From: Taeniopygia guttata
Lineage: Eukaryota > Chordata > Aves > Passeriformes > Estrildidae
DNA length: 64,000 bases
Assembly (NCBI RefSeq): GCF_048771995.1
Contig: NC_133024.1
Coordinates: 114,853,501-114,917,500, forward strand
Reading direction: 5' to 3'
Shown: piece by piece, positions 12,650-63,460 of the stretch
Position numbering within the stretch: position 1 is the stretch's first letter
How the letters are laid out: every line of letters starts with the position of its first letter
The notes under the pieces: generated by a model
The model's input: the letters and a program-made list of their open reading frames with translations, nothing else
Told to the model about the DNA's origin: nothing
Database searches by the model: none
Translations under genes and position numbers: made by a program

Positions 12650-14215
12650 AAGGCCAAGCCATGAGGGCCATGCCAGGAGAGGATGTGCCATGAAGGGGAT
12701 GCCGTGAGGGCCATGCCCTGAGGGAATTGCTGTGGGGGCTATGTTGTGAGGGCCAAGCCATGAAAAGGATGCCATGAGAGGGGTGCCATGAGGGGGCTGC
12801 CATGAGGGTCAAGCCGTGACGGCATTTGCCATGAAGGAGGTGCTGTGAGGGCCATGCCCTGAGGGAACTGCTGTGGGGATTATGCTGTGAGAGCCAAGCC
12901 ATGAAGGAACAGACGTGAGTGGGATGTTATGAGGGGGACGCCATGAGGGGGTTGCCATGAGGGCCAAGCCATGAAAAGGATGCCATGAGGGGGGTGCCAT
13001 GAGGGGGCTGATGTGAGGGTCAAGCCGTGAGGGCCATGCCCTGAGGGAACTGTTGTAGGGGCTAAGCCATGAGGAAACTGCCATGAGGGCCAAGCTATGA
13101 AAAGGATGCCATGAGGGGGCTGCCGTGAGGGTCAAGGCGTGAGGGCATTTGCCATTAAGGAGATGCTGTGAGGGCCATGCCCTGAGGGAACTGCTGCGGA
13201 GACTGTGCTGTGAGAGCCAAGCCATGAAGGAACAGACATGAGTGGGATGTTATGAGGGGGGCGCCATGAGGGGGCTGCCGCGAGGGCCAAGCCATGAAAA
13301 GGATGCCACGAGGGGGGTGCCATGAGGGGGCTGCCGTGAGGGCATTTGCCATTAAGGAGATGCTGTGAGGGCCATGCCCCGAGGGAAGTGCTGTGGGGAT
13401 TGTGCTGTGAGAGCCAAGCCATGAAGGAACAGACATGAGTGGGATGTTATGAGGGGGGAGCCATGAGGGGGCTGCCGTGAGGGCCAAGCCATGAAAAGGA
13501 TGCCATGAGGGGGGTGCCATGAGGGGGCTGCCGTGAGGGTCAAGACGTGAGGGCATTTGCTATTAAGGAGATGCCGTGAGGGCCATGCCCTGAGGGAACT
13601 GCTGTGGGGATTGTGCTGTGAGAGCCAAGCCATGAAGGAACACACATGAGTGGGATGTTACGAGGGGGGCGCCATGAAGGGGCTGCCGTGAGGGCCAAGC
13701 CATGAAAAGGATGCCATGAGGGGGGTGCCATGAGGGAGCTGCCGTGAGGGTCAAGCCGTGAGGGCATTTGCCATGAAGGAGATGCCGCGAGGGCCATGCA
13801 CTGAGGGAACTGCTGTAGGGATTATGCTGTGAGGGCCAAGCCATGAAGGAACAGACATGCGTGGGATGCCATGAGGGGGGTGCCATGAGGGGGCTGCCGT
13901 GAGGGCCAAGCCATGAAAAGGATGCCACGAGCGGGGTGCCATGAGGGAGCTGCCGTGAGGGCCATGCACTGAGGGAACTGCTGTAGGGGCTAAGCCATGA
14001 GGAAACTGCCATGAGGGCCAAGCCATGAAAAGGATGCCACGAGCGGGGTGCCATGAGGGGGCTGCAGTGAGGGTCAAGCCGTGAGGGCATTTGCCATGAA
14101 GGAGGTGCTGTGAGGGCCATGCCCTGAGGGAACTGCTGTGGGGATTATGCTGTGAGGGCCAAGCCATGACAGGGATGCCGTGAGGGGGGTGCCGTGAGGG
14201 AATCTGCCCTGAAGA
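12650..14215. repeat. Minisatellite with about 200-210-bp higher-order unit
   Basis: About 1.55 kb of degenerate short units built on ccatgaggg / ccgtgaggg (roughly 15 bp), ordered into longer periods. The landmark gaacagacatgagtggg recurs near 12907, 13229, 13430, 13637 and 13848, about 200-210 bp apart apart from one longer step. The array keeps several frames open on the minus strand (frames rich in HGxx and SWHP-like repeats); these are by-products of the repeat. It ends directly against the CpG-rich block at 14.2 kb. Confidence 0.92.
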
Positions 14216-54814: not shown

Positions 54815-55012
54815 CAGACCAATAAAACCACGTTTTATTAAAAAAACCCTTTCTACATTAAAAAATACGTCCAAGGCCTTTCCCCTCCTTTCCTTCCAAG
54901 CCCTTGGAAGTGTTCCAGTGCAGTGGCTGTGTGGGGTGTCCCTCCTGCCCTGCCCGAGCTCAGCACCTGCAGCCCTGGGAGGGGTGTCCTGCTCCATGGA
55001 CCGGCAGCATCC
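54815..55012 (-). other. DONSON: DONSON 3' untranslated region
   Basis: Short 3' UTR after the stop at 55013, ending near the minus-strand poly(A) signal AATAAA (54839 to 54834). A plus-strand AATAAA also lies at about 54821-54826, so the two strands could terminate within a few bases of each other. Confidence 0.7.
54834..54839 (-). terminator. DONSON: DONSON poly(A) signal
   Basis: AATAAA on the minus strand, about 175 bp after the DONSON stop codon. Confidence 0.75.
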
Positions 55013-55150
55013 CTAGGCCTTCCAGGTGTAGGTGTAATCCTTCATCTCCAGCAAGCGGATGGAGGATTTCCCCAGAGTCGGACACTGCTGCAGCTGATCC
55101 AAAGTCTTGGGGTGCAGCCCGCAGGCGGGCAGGTCCTGCTGCACATCCTC
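55013..55150 (-). CDS. DONSON: DONSON exon 10 (last)
   Basis: Reads [20 protein letters not shown] then [19 protein letters not shown], ending WKA with TAG at 55015-55013. Human ends LRDYIYNWRS. Confidence 0.94.
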   Translation of the reverse strand, partial: EDVQQDLPACGLHPKTLDQLQQCPTLGKSSIRLLEMKDYTYTWKA

Positions 55151-58100
55151 CTGCAGAGGGCACACACCGAGTCGGGGTTCTGCGGGGCGCTCCCGTTACC
55201 CGCTGCTGAGGGAGGAGGAGCCCCAGGGGCGATCCCGGGAATCCCGGTGCGAAGGGAAGGTCCCGGGGGTGCTGCTCACCTGGGCCGGGGCCGGGCGGGC
55301 GTTGAAGGCGGCGCTGGGCTCGTGGGGGCTGAGCAGGGCGCGGAAGGAGCCGCGCTGCGCCGGGCCCAGCACCATTGTCAGGGCGTGCAGGGCGTGCGGC
55401 AGGACCGGCCCCAGCACCTCCAGGCTGAACACGTCCTCGAAGCCGCCCTGCGCCCGGGCGCGGCCGCTGACGGTGCGAGCCTGGGGCGGAACGGCGCCGT
55501 TAGTGCCACAGCACCACGGCCGGGACGAGCTGTCACAGCCCCAGCACCACCGTGCTGAATTTTGCTAAAAATGCAAACACTTGGCAATATTGCCCACTAC
55601 CGTGCAGTGCACGAGGTTTTACTGTGCCTGTAACAACTCCTAAAATGTATCCCCTGGACTGCAGGGATGCTGTAGGGATTGGGAAGTGCACAAGAGCAGG
55701 ATGAACTTCTCTGGTGGAACAAGTAGCTCATCCTGCTCTTACTGGGAAGAAATTTGGGTTAGATATAGGGAAAGAATTCTCGGCTGTAGGGTGAGGAAGC
55801 CCTGGCACAGCTGTGGCTGCTCCTGGATCCCTGGAAGTGTCCAAGGTCAGCCTTGGAACAGCCTGGAACCTTGGAACAACCTGGGATGGTGGAAGGTGTC
55901 CCTGGCCATGGCAGGGGTTGGCACTGGGATGATCCTGAAGGTCCCTCCCAATCCAAACCATCCCTTGCAGGAACAGAAGGTGAGCTGTGGCTCAGGGGCT
56001 CCTCGAGCAAGGGGCTGGGATAGTCTGAGACCCCACAAGATCTGGGGAGAATCTTAACAACCGTTTTCCCTCTGGGCAGCTCTGCACAGCCTCTTGTCTC
56101 TCGGGAGGTGAGGAAAGGGAAGGCTGGGATTCCAGTTCAGCGCAGGGATGTGTTGTAGGGATTTGGGAACGGGCTGTGCCTGCAAACAAACTGCTGACTC
56201 AGGCTTTAGCCAAAAAAATCCCGCTGTGCTGCCTGAGGGAAAGTTCACCAAGTCAGGGTGAGGAAACTGCTTTCCCTAGGTAAGGAAGCTGCTTCCTCGC
56301 CCTCCCCGGAGCCAGCCTGTGCCTCACCTTGAGCGTCTGCATGGTCCCGCCCCGGAAAGCCACCGGGGACAGCAGCGTCGGGGGCAGCCCCGCCTGCGGC
56401 CCCGCCGCCGCCACCAGGCTGCGGCAGCTGATCAGGAAATTCAGCAGCGTGAAGGTGTTGCTGCCTCTCACCAGCACCAGCGACTCGGGTCTGTGATCCA
56501 CCTGCACCTCGTGCTTCTCCTTGCGCCTGGGGAGCCAGTCAAGGGAAAGCCACGGCGCAGAGGGAAGCATCCATGTGCCAAAAAGCTGGACCAATGAGCC
56601 CCCCCACACCCCACCTGACCAAAATCCCCAGCACCAAACCCCACCCAGCTTTGCACCCATCCAGATATGCTCTTCAGCTGTTAAGCAGCATCTTAATCCT
56701 GGCTTCAAATCCTAGAAATATTGGCAAAGTAACTAAAAAGAAAATGCAATCTCTCATAACGCGCAGGAATGTGAGGATTCATATTTGGAAAACAGCACTG
56801 TAACAGCTGCAGGGTTTTCTGGTGTCACACATCTGGAAGATCAAAGGAAGGATACATTTGGATAGAAATAGTATCTGGTTTCTTCACCTTGTCTTGAACT
56901 CCCATCTCCTCAAGCCAAGAGAAGCTTCCATCATCATCATCATCACTGGGAGTTGGTTCCCTGGAGACACAAGGGTGAGTGTTAGGAGGGCAGTGCCTCC
57001 GAGGAAGGTTTTCCACATGGACTGTGCAGGAGCCTGGAATTCCAGCACTGCACAACTGTGGGTAATAGAAAGATAGAAACTTCCACAGATTCAGGAGGGT
57101 TTGATCTGCAGCCTTGGAAGGAGCTTGGATTGATGTAAAAATAAAGTACATTATTAAGTAGAATAACAGACATTAAGAACAAAGAACGGACATTACGTAG
57201 AAAAATCATGAACTTATTTTCTATAATTTTAAGTGAGAATATACCTTAAGTAAGTGAGAAACTGTATTGATAAGATGGTGAAGGGCTTATAAGTATATTA
57301 TAATTATATATTATAATTGGTTATATATAATTGGGTGTGGTAGTATAGAGTAAGTAAGAGTTTAGAAGTTTTAAATGAAGCATCTGTGTGTATGTGAGTT
57401 AGAAACCCATTAGACAAAAGTATCTGCGGTGCAGCAGAAGTAAGCAAAGGTGATAGGTTAGGAAAGCAAAACAAACCCTGTGGCAGCTGTCTGCTGGGTT
57501 AGAAAGTTCTATATTGCCTTGTAACAAAGGAACTTGTTACTTTGAGCTATGGCCGAATGCTTGCTCCTCTAAAATCTCACCCTCTGAGATGGTGTTTATC
57601 TGAGCAATGAATGGACGGTCCCATCCCTTTATTACAAAGGGTGACACCGATACACAACGCTGTTGCTTACCCTGTAACAAGGCTGTTACTTACCCTGTAA
57701 CAAAGCTGTTACTTACCCTGTAACAAAGCTGTTACTTACCCTGTAACATCACTGTTGCTTACCCTGTAACAAGGCTGTTACTTACCCTGTAACAAGGCTG
57801 TTACTTACCCTGTAACAACGCTGTTACTTACCCTGTAACAAGGCTGTTACTTACCCTGTAACAACGCTGTTACTTACCCTGTAACAAGGCTGTTACTTAC
57901 CCTGTAACAAGGCTGTTACTTACCCTGTAACAACGCTGTTACTTACCCTGTAACATTACTGTTGTTTACCCTGTAACATTGCTGTTGCTTACCCTGTAAC
58001 ATCGCTGTTGCTTACCCTGTAACAAGGCTGTTACTTACCCTGTAACAACGCTGTTACTTACCCTGTAACAACGCTGTTGCTTACCCTGTAACATTGCTGT

Positions 58101-61100
58101 TACTTACCCTGTAACAACGCTGTTGCTTACCCTGTAACAAGGCTGTTGCTTACCCTGTAACAAGGCTGTTACTTACCCTGTAACATCGTTGTTGCTTACC
58201 CTGTAACAAGGCTGTTCCTTACCCTGTAACAAGGCTGTTGCTTACCCTGTAACATCGCTGTTACTTACCCTGTAACAAGGCTGTTACTTACCCTGTAACA
58301 TCGCTGTTACTTACCCTGTAACAAGGCTGTTCCTTACCCTGTAACAAGGCTGTTGCTTACCCTGTAACAACGCTGTTGCTTACCCTGTAACAAGGCTGTT
58401 GCTTACCCTGTAACAGTGCTGTTACTTACCCTGTAACAAGGCTGTTGCTTACCCTGTAACAGCGCTGTTACTTACCCTGTAACATCGCTGTTGCTTACCC
58501 TGTAACAGCGCTGTTGCTTACCCTGTAACAAGGCTGTTACCCTGTAACAAGGCTGTTACTTACCCTGTAACAGCTCTGTTGCTTACCCTGTAACAACGCT
58601 GTTGCTTACCCTGTAACAAGGCTGTTACCCTGTAACAAGGCTGTTACTTACCCTGTAACAGCGCTGTTGCTTACCCTGTAACATCGCTGTTGCTTACCCT
58701 GTAACAAGGCTGTTGTTTACCCTGTAACAAGGCTGTTGCTTACCCTGTAACATCGCTGTTACTTACCCTGTAACAAGGCTGTTGCTTACCCTGTAACATC
58801 GCTGTTACTTACCCTGTAACAAGGCTGTTACTTACCCTGTAACATCGCTGTTACTTACCCTGTAACAAGGCTGTTACTTACCCTGTAACAAGGCTGTTAC
58901 TTACCCTGTAACAAGGCTGTTGCTTACCCTGTAACAAGGCTGTTACTTACCCTGTAACAAGGCTGTTACTTACCCTGTAACAAGGCTGTTGCTTACCCTG
59001 TAGCAAGGCTGTTGCTTACCCTGTAACAAGGCTGTTACTTACCCCACGTCCCCCGTGCTGCTGCCCCCTCCGAGCCCATCAGCGGTGTCTGTTTCCAAAC
59101 TCTCCTCTGAGCTTTTCCGTTTCCTGCTCCTACTTTCCTCGAGCAAAGGTAAGGAGAACTCTATGCCTGGGCAGAGCAAAGGCAGCAGTGAGTGCCGCGT
59201 GCCAGCCCTGCCCCGTGCCCGCGCCCCGTGCCCTTACCGTCGCCGCGCATGGCGTCGCGCAGGCCGCGCGTGGTGGGCGCGATGGCGGCGGTGGGCACGG
59301 CGCTGCCCGCCAGCCCCGCGGCGCGGAACAGCACCGAGAACTGCGGCGCGCACACGTAGAAATACGGACACAGCCGGGCCCGCAGCAGGTTGTACAGGGA
59401 GGTGAAGCTCACCGACCTGGCGGGGAACAAACAGCGCTGGCACAGCTGGCAGTCCTGCCCTGCTGGAGAGGGAAGCTGGACGAGGTACGGAGGGAATGGC
59501 TCCCAGTGCCAGAGGGCAGGGCTGGGTGGGAGATTGGGATTTGGGAATTGTTCCCTGGCAGGGGGGCAGGTCCTGGCACAGGGTGCCCAGAGCAGATCGC
59601 TGGCAGTGCCCAAGGCCAGGCTGGACACTGGCACTGGGAGCAGCCTGGCACAGCGGATGATGTCCCCGTGGCAGAGGTTGAAATGCAATGATCCCTACGC
59701 TCCCCTCCAACCCAACCCATGCCACGACTCTGATTAGTTAAAATCTCCCTGTCTCACTCTATCCCAGCCCATCAGTACTTTGGCTGCACTTACCAGTCAC
59801 TCATGAGCACCTGCTGCACGGCCTCGTCCTGCGCCCAAGGACAGGCCTTTCCAGCCATCCTCCTGTCTGCCCCGAGGCGGGGGAACAGCGGCAGCCAGGG
59901 CAGCGAGGGGTGCAGCCAGTAGACCAGGCTCTGCTGGAAGGCACAGCGCAGCTCCGTGCACAGCCGCGGCTCCTGCAGGTCCCACAGGCCGTGAGGGGCG
60001 CGGTGAAGCTGCCACCCTGTTTTCCATTCCCAGATCTACATTCCCAGTTCCCATTCGAATCCTCATTCCCATTATCATCCCCATTCCCAGTTCCCATCCC
60101 CATTCACAGTTCCCATTCCCCATTCCTTATTCCCAGTTCCATTCCCAGTTCCCATCCCCATTCACAGTTCCCATTCCCCATTCCTTATTCCCAGTTCCAT
60201 TCCCAGTTCCCATCCCCATTCCCAGTTCCCATCCCCATTCCTTATTCCCAGTTCCATTCCCAGTTCCCATCCCCATATCCCATCCCCATTCACAGTTCCC
60301 ATTCCCCATTCCTTACTCCCAGTTCCTATTCCCAGTTCCCAGTTCCCATCCACATCCCCTTTCCCAGTTTTCCATTCCCAGTTCCTGTTCCCAGTTTTCC
60401 ATTCCCAGTTCCTGTTCCCAGTTCTCCATTCCCAGTTCCTGTTCCCAGTTTCCCATTCCCAGTTCCCGTTCCCAGTTCCCATTGCCGGCAAAGCTGCAGC
60501 CCCGGGCCCAGCCCTCACCTGCACGCTCCGGGGCAAGGTGGTTTCTGCAGCTCTGCAGTGCTGGGCAAAGCCCTGCGCCTCCTCCTGTGCTTTCAGGTGC
60601 TCTGCCCAGGTGAAGGGTTGGGAGGACATGAAGAGAACCCGGGTTTTAATACTCCAGTCCGCAGGGAATTCCTGTCTTGGCGAGGAGGGAGCTTTGGGAA
60701 CAGCCAGAGGTGAATGAAGGCTCTGAGCAGACAGAAACAGCATCAGTTAACTCACAGAAAACTAAACCTGTTCACAGGCTGAACCAAAGGCACAGTTACT
60801 ATTTTATATATTATTATAATATTTATTATTATTTAATATTTATATGATTATATTGTCTATTGAATTGTTTATTATATTATTTATTATAGTATTTATTGTA
60901 TTGTTTATTATATTATTTATTGTGTTATTTATTATATAATTTATTCTATTATTTATTATATATTGATTTATAATTCTTATATTTTATATATATTATATAT
61001 TTATATTTTTTCTATTATTATTTTGATTATTTTACTCAGTACCAGATTCTAACAAAAATACTCCATTCTACTGCCTATAAAACCACATCAGAGGGCCTGC

Positions 61101-63147
61101 ACTCATGAGTCCTTCCCACAATATAAACTAGGAACAAATAAAGGGTAAATTGTCAAAACTAAAAAGCCCCGAGCCTGTTGTTTACAAAGACAAGAATTTC
61201 CATGCCAAAATGGTTATTTCATTTCATTCTCTCCTGGTGACTGTAATGTTACATGCTGAAAAAAGCCCTGAGCACCTCCAAGACAGTTTGCTTTCTTTTT
61301 TCTATCCTTCTCATTTAGTTGGAACTTCATTTTCTGTACCTAGAACGACATGTACCTAGAACAACATCCATTTCATTCTATTGAAACTCTGTTTCAATTT
61401 CAAGGGCTGGTTTTCAGGAATTCTTGCTTTCCTGTGTGCCTGATGAAGTGCTCCATTTCTGCAGCTGAAAACCAGAATGCAGGAGCTATCTGGTGAAGAA
61501 CATCCTAATCTCAACTACATATAAAACTAAGAAATAGTATAATTATAGTTATGAAAACTGAAAGAAAACAACCTCTGTCCATGGAACTACGATAGCACTG
61601 AGGTCAGGCAGAAGGCTGGGTTTTAAAGACTGTCACCAGAACAGGAATCAATGTAAGAAATGTCCTTGAATATGGACATTTTAGTACATTCTTTTACACA
61701 GAGATGGGCCAGCAAAAACCACGTTCGCCCTGAGAACAGCTGGAATCTTTTCAGCAGCGTGTGCCGTTCCATACCTGGCTTAGGTCGAGGATGTCGGAAC
61801 TTTCAGCAGGCTCCGCTCTCCCGGGAGGCTTCTCTTCACCCGCCGGCTCTAAAAACTGAATGAAAGAACAGCATAAGGCACAGCACAAAGGAAGCAGCGG
61901 GCTGATAACTTTAAAAACTGCCCTTGCAATGACATTTCCCGAGTGCTCCTCAGCACCCCGGGCTGCGAACAAACCCCGATCGGGGCGAGCACGAGATCCG
62001 CACCAGTGCTGAGCGGCAGCCCGAGCCCAGCAGGGCCTTGGGGAGGTGGGGGAGAGCCAGGGCGGCATCGGAAAGGGGCTGAGGGCGAGGGCTGAGGGCT
62101 GAGGGTGGTGGCTGAGGGTTGAATGTGATGGCTGAGAGCTCAGTGCAATGGCTGAGGGCTGAGGGCATTAGCTGAGGGCAGTGGCTGAGGGCTGAGGGCA
62201 CTAGCTGAGGGCTGAGGGCTGAATGTGATGGCTGAGAGCTCAGTGCAATGGCTGAGGGCTGAGGGCACTAGCTGAGGGCAGTGGCTGAGGGCTGAATGTG
62301 ATGGCTGAGAGCTCAGTGCAATGGCTGAGGGCTGAGGGCACTAGCTGAGGGCAGTGGCTGAGGGCTGAATGTGATGGCTGAGAGCTCAGTGCAATGGCTG
62401 AGGGCTGAGGGCACTAGCTGAGGGCAGTGGCTGAGGGCTGAATGTGATGGCTGAGAGCTCAGTGCAATGGCTGAGGGCTGAGGGCTGAATGTGATGGCTG
62501 AGGGCTCAGTGCAATGGCTGAGGGCTGAGGGCACTAGCTGAGGTTGGTGGCTGAGGGCTGAGGGCTGAATGTGATGGCTGAGGGCTCAGTGCAATGGCTG
62601 AGGGCTGAGGGCACTAGCTGAGGGCAGTGGCTGAGGGCACTAGCTGAGGGCAATGGCTGAGGGCTGAAGATACTAGCTGAGGGCAGTGGCTGAGGGCTGA
62701 GGGCTGAATGTGATGGCTGAGAGCTCAGTGCAATGGCTGAGGGCTGAGGGCACTAGCTGAGGGCAGGGGCTGGGGGCTGAATGTGATGGCTGAGAGCTCA
62801 GTGCAATGGCTGAGGGCTGAGGGCTGAGCGCGGCTGACCCCGCTGCCGGGGCTCGGTCCCACCTGCCAGAAGGGCGCTGCCGATGCATCCCCGCCCGCCG
62901 GGGCCGCTGCCGGAGGCCGAGGGGCGGCCGCCGCCCGCCGCGGAGCTTTGTCCAGGCTGGAGAAGGGGTTGCGGCGCCGGCCGGCCGCAGAGCCCCGCGG
63001 GGCCGGGGCGGCGGCGGCTTCCGCGGAGGCGGTGGCGGGGTCGCTCCTCCGCCCAGGACGTTTGCGCTTCAGCCGCAGCAGCGCCGGCGGCTTCTTGAAG
63101 CCGGGCGAGTGCTCGGGCGAGTGCTCGGGCTCGGCAGGGGCGGCCAT
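55013..63147 (-). CDS. DONSON: DONSON, 10 coding exons, 564 aa
   Basis: DONSON (downstream neighbour of SON) is a nuclear replication protein that helps load GINS onto MCM during CMG helicase assembly and protects forks. Exons in transcript order: 62863-63147, 61775-61855, 60519-60722, 59794-59972, 59238-59416, 59043-59166, 56856-56960, 56328-56526, 55280-55480, 55013-55150. All are GT-AG with matching phases, total 1695 bp including stop, 564 aa against 566 in human. Conserved landmarks: [81 protein letters not shown] and [15 protein letters not shown]. The N-terminal exon is Ala/Pro/Arg-rich and poorly conserved. Introns 1, 3 and 6 are filled mostly by three different tandem arrays. The ATG at 63147 has a good context (gccATGG) and gives the human-like SPGFKKPP start. 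Confidence 0.96.
55280..55480 (-). CDS. DONSON: DONSON exon 9
   Basis: Reads [20 protein letters not shown] then [18 protein letters not shown] and [11 protein letters not shown], matching human ITGPIMPHSLHSLTMLL and YPHEPTAVFN. GC-rich; phase 0 at both ends. Confidence 0.94.
55780..55970 (+). mobile_element. CR1 LINE 3' end in DONSON intron 8
   Basis: Forward copy: aggaagccctggcacagctg to ggtccctcccaatccaaacc. Antisense to DONSON. Confidence 0.85.
56328..56526 (-). CDS. DONSON: DONSON exon 8
   Basis: Reads [20 protein letters not shown] then [16 protein letters not shown] and [19 protein letters not shown]. Phase 0 at donor GTGAGG. Confidence 0.96.
56856..56960 (-). CDS. DONSON: DONSON exon 7
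   Basis: Reads [20 protein letters not shown] then [14 protein letters not shown], matching human [20 protein letters not shown] and the sequence after it. Phase 2 at donor GTATCC. Confidence 0.95.
57338..57654 (+). mobile_element. Possible ERV LTR (fossil) beside the 23-bp array
   Basis: Starts tgtggtagtatagag, carries a run like gagcaatgaatggacggtcc as in LTR R-U5 segments, and ends gatacaca, so TG...CA ends are present. It abuts the 23-bp array. No internal viral region is seen. Weak, based on layout only. Confidence 0.3.
57655..59040 (-). repeat. DONSON: 23-bp minisatellite of splice-donor-like units, DONSON intron 6
   Basis: About 60 head-to-tail copies; on the transcribed (minus) sense the unit is GGGTAAGTAACAGCCTTGTT plus ACA. 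Nearly every copy contains GGTAAGT or GGTAAGC preceded by ACA, a good match to the U1-binding consensus. Variation is concentrated at one T/C position (GTAAGT versus GTAAGC) and in the tetranucleotide before ctgtt. Two copies, near 58535 and 58624, lack the donor core (about 19 bp). The last copy is continuous with the authentic exon 6 donor at 59042. The array is about two thirds of the 2.08-kb intron. Confidence 0.97.
59043..59166 (-). CDS. DONSON: DONSON exon 6
   Basis: Starts [20 protein letters not shown] (human [17 protein letters not shown]) and ends in an acidic, Gly-rich stretch, STGDVG. The donor GTAAGTAACAGCC (59042 downward) is itself the first unit of the 23-bp array that fills the intron. 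Reading past it gives TAA at once. Confidence 0.93.
59238..59416 (-). CDS. DONSON: DONSON exon 5
   Basis: Reads [20 protein letters not shown] then [10 protein letters not shown] and [14 protein letters not shown]. Phase 1 at the donor GTAAGG. Confidence 0.95.
59495..59735 (+). mobile_element. CR1 LINE 3' end in DONSON intron 4
   Basis: Forward copy: ctcccagtgccagagggcag to aacccaacccatgccacgac. It fills most of the 377-bp intron, antisense to DONSON. Confidence 0.86.
59794..59972 (-). CDS. DONSON: DONSON exon 4
   Basis: Reads [20 protein letters not shown] then [20 protein letters not shown] and VLMSDW, matching human [20 protein letters not shown] and the sequence after it. It ends in phase 2 within the Trp codon at GTAAGT. 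Confidence 0.94.
60030..60485 (-). repeat. DONSON: TTCCCA/GGGAA-type simple array, DONSON intron 3
   Basis: About 455 bp of (ttcccattcccagttccca)-like repeats fill most of the 546-bp intron 3. On the minus (RNA-sense) strand this is runs of GGG separated by 3-4 bases, the pattern of G-quadruplexes. Confidence 0.93.
60519..60722 (-). CDS. DONSON: DONSON exon 3
   Basis: 68 codons holding [20 protein letters not shown] and [17 protein letters not shown], nearly identical to human. Phase 0 at both ends, donor GTGAGG. Confidence 0.95.
60795..61030. repeat. AT-rich simple repeat, DONSON intron 2
   Basis: Imperfect attt/atta repeat (tttattatattatttatt-like), low complexity. Confidence 0.85.
61775..61855 (-). 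CDS. DONSON: DONSON exon 2
   Basis: 27 codons: [20 protein letters not shown] then DILDLSQ. The acceptor AG just before 61855 keeps the frame; a second AG 7 bp on would shift it. Human is poorly conserved here, so the acceptor choice rests on phase. Confidence 0.8.
62080..62830. repeat. DONSON: Minisatellite with 73-bp higher-order unit, DONSON intron 1
   Basis: Built from ggctgagg-type short units. The landmark gaatgtgatggctgag recurs near 62121, 62221, 62294, 62367, 62440, 62487, 62567, 62706 and 62779, often 73 bp apart. It fills about three quarters of the 1.0-kb intron 1 and ends within about 35 bp of the exon 1 donor. Confidence 0.93.
62863..63147 (-). CDS. DONSON: DONSON exon 1
   Basis: Encodes 95 residues: [20 protein letters not shown], then [20 protein letters not shown] and an Ala/Pro tail to PFWQ. 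A 12-bp duplication gives the doubled EHSP. Donor GTGGGA, phase 0. Very GC-rich. Confidence 0.9.
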
Positions 63148-63460
63148 GGCAGAGCCGCGCTCCCGTCTTGGCGCCAAAGAGCGGCCGCTCCGCCCCGGGG
63201 CGGCGCTGAGGGAGCGGCGCCGCCATCGCTGCCGCCCTCAGGGGCTCTGAGGGGAGCGCGGCTCCCGCCAGCCCCGCTCCGCCCGCACGGGCAGCGCAGA
63301 GCTGGAGCACAAAGACACACGGCGCTGCCATTGTGTCCGAGCCCTTCAAATGCACCCGCACAGCGGCCCCAGGGGCTGCGCTCGGCCGCGGCAGCAGCGC
63401 TCCAGGGCCGAGCTCTGCGAGATGTGACACTGAACCCACAGGCTTTAGTCTGTCTGGGAG
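63148..63460 (-). promoter_or_regulatory. DONSON: DONSON CpG-rich promoter region
   Basis: GC- and CpG-rich DNA directly upstream of the DONSON start codon, continuous with the GC-rich exon 1, lacking a TATA box. The transcription start cannot be placed precisely. Confidence 0.65.

Follow-up and report, generated by a model that had tools for sequence, protein, structure and literature searches.

The 5′ splice site of intron 6 of DONSON in Taeniopygia guttata stands at the head of a tandem array in which the last two bases of exon 6 and about the first 21 bases of the intron occur in 61 copies. The array lies within the 64,000-nucleotide (nt) stretch analysed here (the window; C1:114853501–114917500 of a searched genome of 1.14 Gb in 41 contigs) and is far beyond chance. 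The array likely represents a minisatellite for which the exon 6 donor was the seed, with copy 1 as the dominant splice site and the downstream decoys costing a small leak. This suggests that a splice donor in an essential replication gene may found a minisatellite that persists at some 60 copies, and the intron affected is the one in which mis-splicing leads to microcephaly-micromelia in people (PMC5538549).

Structure and uniqueness of the donor array

DONSON is encoded on the minus strand from 63147 to 55013 in ten coding exons, which give 564 codons with every phase joining and a protein 98% identical to a T. guttata entry; two sequences in the PDB match this protein, the better being 8q6o chain R. 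The features on which the argument depends, in the order of transcription, are as follows.

59043..59166, minus strand: DONSON exon 6, 124 nt, ending in GTGGG in phase 2 (gene model and protein match)
59042, minus strand: first base of DONSON intron 6, with the authentic donor GGG/GTAAGT being array copy 1 (exon 6/7 phase and sequence)
57653..59044, minus strand: donor array, 61 units of GGGTAAGYAACAGCNNTGTTACA, of which 58 are intact at 23 nt, two are of 19 nt and the last is truncated
57653..57658, minus strand: copy 1 of a probable target-site duplication, GTTGTG, inside the last array unit
57057..57652, minus strand: solo long terminal repeat (LTR)-like element of about 596 bp, ending in CA (genome matches, ends compared with 19 copies)
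57051..57056, minus strand: copy 2 of the probable target-site duplication, GTTGTG (from sequence)
56961..57050, minus strand: unique 3′ part of intron 6, including the exon 7 acceptor CCAG/GG
56856..56960, minus strand: DONSON exon 7, opening G GAA CCA, whose first G completes the last codon of exon 6

When the minus strand is split at GGGTAA, the 61 units follow one another head to tail with starts from 59044 to 57672, in agreement with Tandem Repeats Finder (57654–59044, period 23, 60.8 copies, 90% matches, score 2152). The 5′ edge of the array lies two bases inside exon 6, while at the 3′ edge the last unit breaks off into other sequence and the array passes into unique intron. Because exon 6 ends in phase 2 and the completing G is found at 56960, the authentic donor is fixed at 59042, and the T. 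guttata protein model has exon 6 joined to exon 7 at this junction. The first-pass annotation, which had described about 60 tandem copies of the exon 6 donor with the authentic site as the end copy and in register, is thus borne out on both points. Variation among the units is mostly confined to three columns, namely donor position +6 (T in 31, C in 26 and G in two across 59 units) and unit positions 15 and 16. Any higher-order pattern is weak, with unit identity at a distance of two units reaching p = 0.009 as one of 12 distances tried.

Across the genome, the exact two-unit pattern matches 44 times, always inside the array, and the control pattern read backwards does not match at all. Similarly, a BLAST search of the array and the remaining intron against the rest of the window returned nothing beyond the locus. 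An origin of the array in a mobile element would place the unit in other copies of that element; in the sister copies of the LTR, however, the match begins only after the array, and the unit was not seen in the short flanks compared. On the uniqueness of the exact pattern and the absence of the unit from those flanks, we reject the array as part of a dispersed repeat.

Ancestral intron, probable seeding and age of the donor

The present length of intron 6 is 2082 nt, and most of what lies outside the array belongs to the LTR-like element. This element is matched in full or in part at no fewer than 39 further genomic places, chiefly at 70–86% identity (a lower bound, as 40 of 226 candidates were scored). 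Its median identity to the 19 other copies compared (0.844) falls within the range of theirs (0.833–0.865), so that its divergence is typical for the family. Clean 6-bp target duplications were found by an exact test in two of these 19 sister copies (L034 and L040) and in none of the other 17. In the window copy the scripted test returned no more than GTTG (4 bp) and placed TG at the start of the element; alignment of this start by eye to L040 shifts it by two bases and yields GTTGTG on both sides, and a 6-bp duplication is therefore probable. By convention, a duplication of this length would make the element ERVK-like. The left end of the element sits within the last array unit.

Once the LTR, one copy of the duplication and 60 units are subtracted, 108 nt of intron remain. 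As intron 6 of human DONSON measures 109 bp (PMC5538549), the ancestral intron was probably short. The register of the array, the phase of the exon and this 108-nt remainder support the earlier proposal that the donor and first intron bases were the seed, and the founder probably comprised the two bases that end the exon together with some 21 from the start of the intron. Arrays also occur elsewhere in the gene, in four of its nine introns (1, 2, 3 and 6). The array of intron 1 (62076–62824) starts 38 nt past the donor and holds no donor-like GTRAG, that of intron 3 (60024–60483) starts 35 nt past the donor and holds one, and intron 2 carries an AT-rich array near its 3′ end (60811–61033). That other introns of DONSON hold such donor-free arrays is counted in favour of a minisatellite origin.

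The age of the donor was approached through bird DONSON proteins, taken from the best 120 of 797 and the best 120 of 732 matches, with 124 bird proteins listed. The residue at the exon 6/7 junction could be placed in 116 of the 124: Glu in 66, Gly in 45, Asp in three, and Lys and Arg in one each, the sequence preceding the junction in the Arg protein being unlike the others. Of the remaining eight, three join exon 4 to exon 7 and five could not be placed. When the listed birds are grouped by name, the proteins with Gly come from 41 songbirds and four non-passerines, and most others have Glu; among the songbirds, a bowerbird, a lyrebird and a scrub-bird carry Asp or Glu. The codon suggests that the last base of the exon is G in most songbirds and A elsewhere; since the units carry G, seeding after the A/G change would fit. 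The position of the exon 6 donor itself looks old, and recruitment of the donor from an invading array is disfavoured, as the junction residue lines up across the listed birds.

Other features of the window were observed in passing. Exon 1 of DONSON contains a 12-bp tandem duplication (63102–63130), by which the single EHSP of the T. guttata entry becomes EHSPEHSP. Intron 7 (56527–56855, minus strand) starts with GTATCCTT and has CCCTTGAC shortly 5′ of its AG, motifs that we take to be marks of a U12-type (minor) intron. Upstream of a long SON-like reading frame, a large array of the GCCATGAGGG type at 12658–14200 (plus strand) contains 31 instances of GTRAG on that strand.

Decoy donors and competing explanations

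The donor cores of the 61 units are GTAAGT in 31 (the authentic site included), GTAAGC in 24, and GTAAGG, GTAAAC and GTAACA in two each, and GGTAAGT or GGTAAGC is kept in 55 of 61, as the first-pass annotation had noted for nearly all copies. Its description of these copies as strong U1-type sites is broadly right. It is supported by a weight matrix, on which 30 of the 60 decoys score at least as high as the authentic donor, but not by U1 duplex energy, on which no decoy matches that donor (−11.6 or weaker against −11.9). Continued translation past the exon 6 donor meets a stop after residue 351, so that use of a decoy would, as had been predicted, truncate DONSON.

Retention of the core had also been read as a sign of a role. 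Among the 58 intact units, to which the count was confined (neither the two short units nor the last one being included), donor positions −2 to +5 depart from consensus in 2 of 406 cells, and 13 other columns do so in 5 of 754 (p = 1.0). The core is no better kept than these columns; a role is not supported by its retention, which we read, short of proof, as general homogeneity of the array and not as donor-specific selection.

This bears directly on the suggestion that the array is a selected ladder of U1 sites in the nascent RNA, which would concentrate U1 and hold off premature polyadenylation, or would serve as a copy-counting control of dosage. Such a function is unsupported and, in our view, improbable. 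It could draw on the GGTAAGY words in 55 units, on the single bases of the GTAAG core being unpaired with nearly the same mean probability in decoys as in the authentic donor (0.675 and 0.686), and on the core being better kept when set against all 16 other columns. For the 8-nt site taken as a whole, on the other hand, the decoys are less accessible (median 0.033 against 0.099), with 15 of 60 being as open as the authentic site. Clusters of three GGTAAGT spaced by 10–40 nt have 26 matches genome-wide, 17 of them in the DONSON array, six on C10 and one each on C3, C7 and C16, making the DONSON array the largest of five such places by matches. The same pattern read backwards, a single control motif, has 191 matches, and donor clusters as such are therefore not enriched. 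A place on C10 (about 573130–573486, minus strand; L070) has 13 GGTAAGT or GGTAAAT words in interrupted tandem blocks of the form TTTCCCCAG/GTAAGTTCTG, in each of which a good 3′ site runs straight into a good 5′ site.

The case for RNA hairpins formed by the GTAACA and TGTTAC arms is weak. A stretch of 343 nt folds better than its shuffles (z = −6.0), but a repeat with inverted arms is expected to fold so; three 35-nt pieces, each spanning one and a half units, gave z = −0.5, 0.6 and −2.1, and one 16-nt piece gave −1.6. A loosened hairpin pattern found three chance-like matches in the rest of the window, a number that one of 100 shuffles equalled; by its fixed letters this pattern also missed the array's own units and is uninformative. 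A known RNA family is rejected, as Rfam gave no match at the gathering score across 54900–63300.

Recursive splicing, in which each unit would offer a 3′ site (TTGTTACAG/G) directly before its 5′ site, could draw on the usual two-unit junction, ACAG/G/GTAAGY, and on the 60 occurrences of CAG before GGTAA. At the pseudo-acceptors, however, pyrimidines take up a median of 8 of 16 positions (range 6–8), as compared with 12 in six of the nine real DONSON acceptors (8, 10 and 11 in the others), and the extra G between AG and GT would move the reading frame by 1 at each re-splicing event from exon 6. On this weak polypyrimidine tract and the extra G we reject such stations, which are hardly credible here. 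That the copy number is in part an artefact of assembly is very improbable. Assembly may shorten or lengthen an array whose units are nearly identical, but the mix of variants among these units is mostly irregular, which would have aided their assembly.

A weightier alternative is that the array acts as the repeat in human ABCA7 does, its length raising the joint skipping of exons 5 and 6 and lowering functional DONSON, so that copy number tunes or burdens dosage. The two exons together measure 303 nt and are in frame (101 codons). Protein models that join exon 4 to exon 7 are found for Lonchura striata, Anomalospiza imberbis (isoform X2) and Chloebia gouldiae, that is, in 3 of 119 placeable listed proteins, and in none of the other listed bird proteins with a placeable junction. 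By family, the junction occurs in three of the five listed proteins of Estrildidae and Viduidae. Further support comes from ABCA7, in which skipping of exon 19 climbs with repeat length (PMC5954066), and from human DONSON, in which intron 6 is spliced inefficiently in comparison with the other introns and its retention causes disease (PMC5538549). However, these are protein models, drawn from the two sets of best 120 matches described above; gaps in the assemblies could yield identical models, and that of Chloebia lacks other parts too. Exon 6 is kept in the models of T. guttata and Vidua macroura, and the exon skipped in ABCA7 lies 3′ of its repeat whereas those skipped in the finches lie 5′ of the array. 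We therefore take the exon 4-to-7 models as resembling an ABCA7-like effect, a lead and not a result, and regard this alternative as doubtful. Slightly more doubtful is its extension to an estrildid donor array that serves as a length-variable brake, more copies giving weaker definition of exon 6, more skipping or decay and less DONSON; if true, this would make an already inefficient intron a copy-number-set control of dosage.

The explanation that we prefer, a donor-seeded minisatellite with copy 1 dominant, does not require a selected function for the array. From an ancestral intron of about 108 nt, the array would have grown via slippage or unequal exchange and been homogenised as any minisatellite. 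The spliceosome would mostly pick copy 1, to which the exon is adjacent, and by analogy with ABCA7 the decoys would cost a small leak, in which use of an early decoy would bring the stop after residue 351 and decay. Alternatively, disturbed definition of exon 6 could lead to in-frame skipping of exons 5 and 6. The array is probably near-neutral, leakage through decoys or skipping of exons 5 and 6 being its likely cost, and it may make DONSON splicing leakier; such a leak could matter because human intron 6 is already the less efficiently spliced.

Several observations weigh against this explanation. An array edge within two bases of the donor has a chance of about 0.7% if the array may lie anywhere in the 2082-nt intron (about 692 positions), but of about 6% for a 23-nt founder free to take any of the roughly 86 positions of a 108-nt intron. 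The latter null is the fairer one, so the match of the edge speaks only modestly for seeding. Set against all 16 other columns taken together, which vary in 78 of 928 cells, the donor core is better kept (p = 1e-10), an advantage that arises because these include the three hypervariable columns, donor +6 among them. Use of copy 1 is itself deduced from sequence, and work cited in the part of PMC5585400 consulted shows that bound proteins govern which of two adjacent donors is used, so that splicing mainly at copy 1 is not guaranteed.

Comparison with human repeats at splice donors

The closest likeness is to the variable number tandem repeat (VNTR) of ABCA7 intron 18, whose 25-bp unit lies directly 3′ of the exon, with its first two bases being the GT of exon 18, and which numbers 23.7 copies in the human reference (PMC5954066). 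In both cases the unit contains the authentic donor in register and the array abuts or overlaps the edge of the exon. According to the sections of that report drawn on here, the donor of the second ABCA7 copy is used at 2 ± 1% whatever the repeat length, retaining one unit and shifting the frame, and one retained unit is reported and no ladder of forms (PMC5954066). Longer repeats are accompanied by more exon 19 skipping and by lower expression that does not arise via decay, and in frontal cortex the alternative forms jointly exceed the canonical form in 90% of cases (PMC5954066), so that the effects of such an array need not be small. The ABCA7 VNTR is highly polymorphic, with lengths between about 300 bp and more than 10 kb (PMC6660495). 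It differs from the DONSON array in that it is a C-rich region whose effects were measured on RNA and expression, whereas the finch array, in a bird gene and with a GTAAGY unit starting two exonic bases upstream, is known at the level of sequence.

The VNTR of CBS is similarly donor-anchored. Its 31-bp unit, c.1444_1467+7, crosses the boundary of exon 13 and intron 13, and its 16–21 copies carry the donor (PMC2630376), with higher copy number accompanying lower activity in the excerpt consulted (PMC5188458). The exonic share of the unit is 24 of 31 bases in CBS, by its name, as against 2 of 23 in finch DONSON. The intronic 38-bp repeat VNTR6-1 of TERT intron 6, which is tied to splicing, is likened here by description only (PMC11830802). 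Among the matches listed from open-licence literature, no donor-anchored repeat in a bird was found.

Human DONSON intron 6 occupies the equivalent position in the gene. As far as the consulted text of the report goes, its splicing is less efficient than that of other DONSON introns, with retention of 24 ± 10% in controls by reverse transcription PCR (values that may be off in absolute terms, as its authors state). Retention leads to an early stop, and a variant in this intron causes microcephaly-micromelia (PMC5538549). The human intron differs in being short, and that text mentions no tandem array in it (PMC5538549).

Judged by its sequence, we class the finch array as a donor-seeded minisatellite of the ABCA7 and CBS kind. 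With 61 near-identical donors of which the first is the real one, it offers a natural construct for how the spliceosome chooses among equal donors, and it is equally suited to asking whether repeat length alone alters exon skipping, as in ABCA7.

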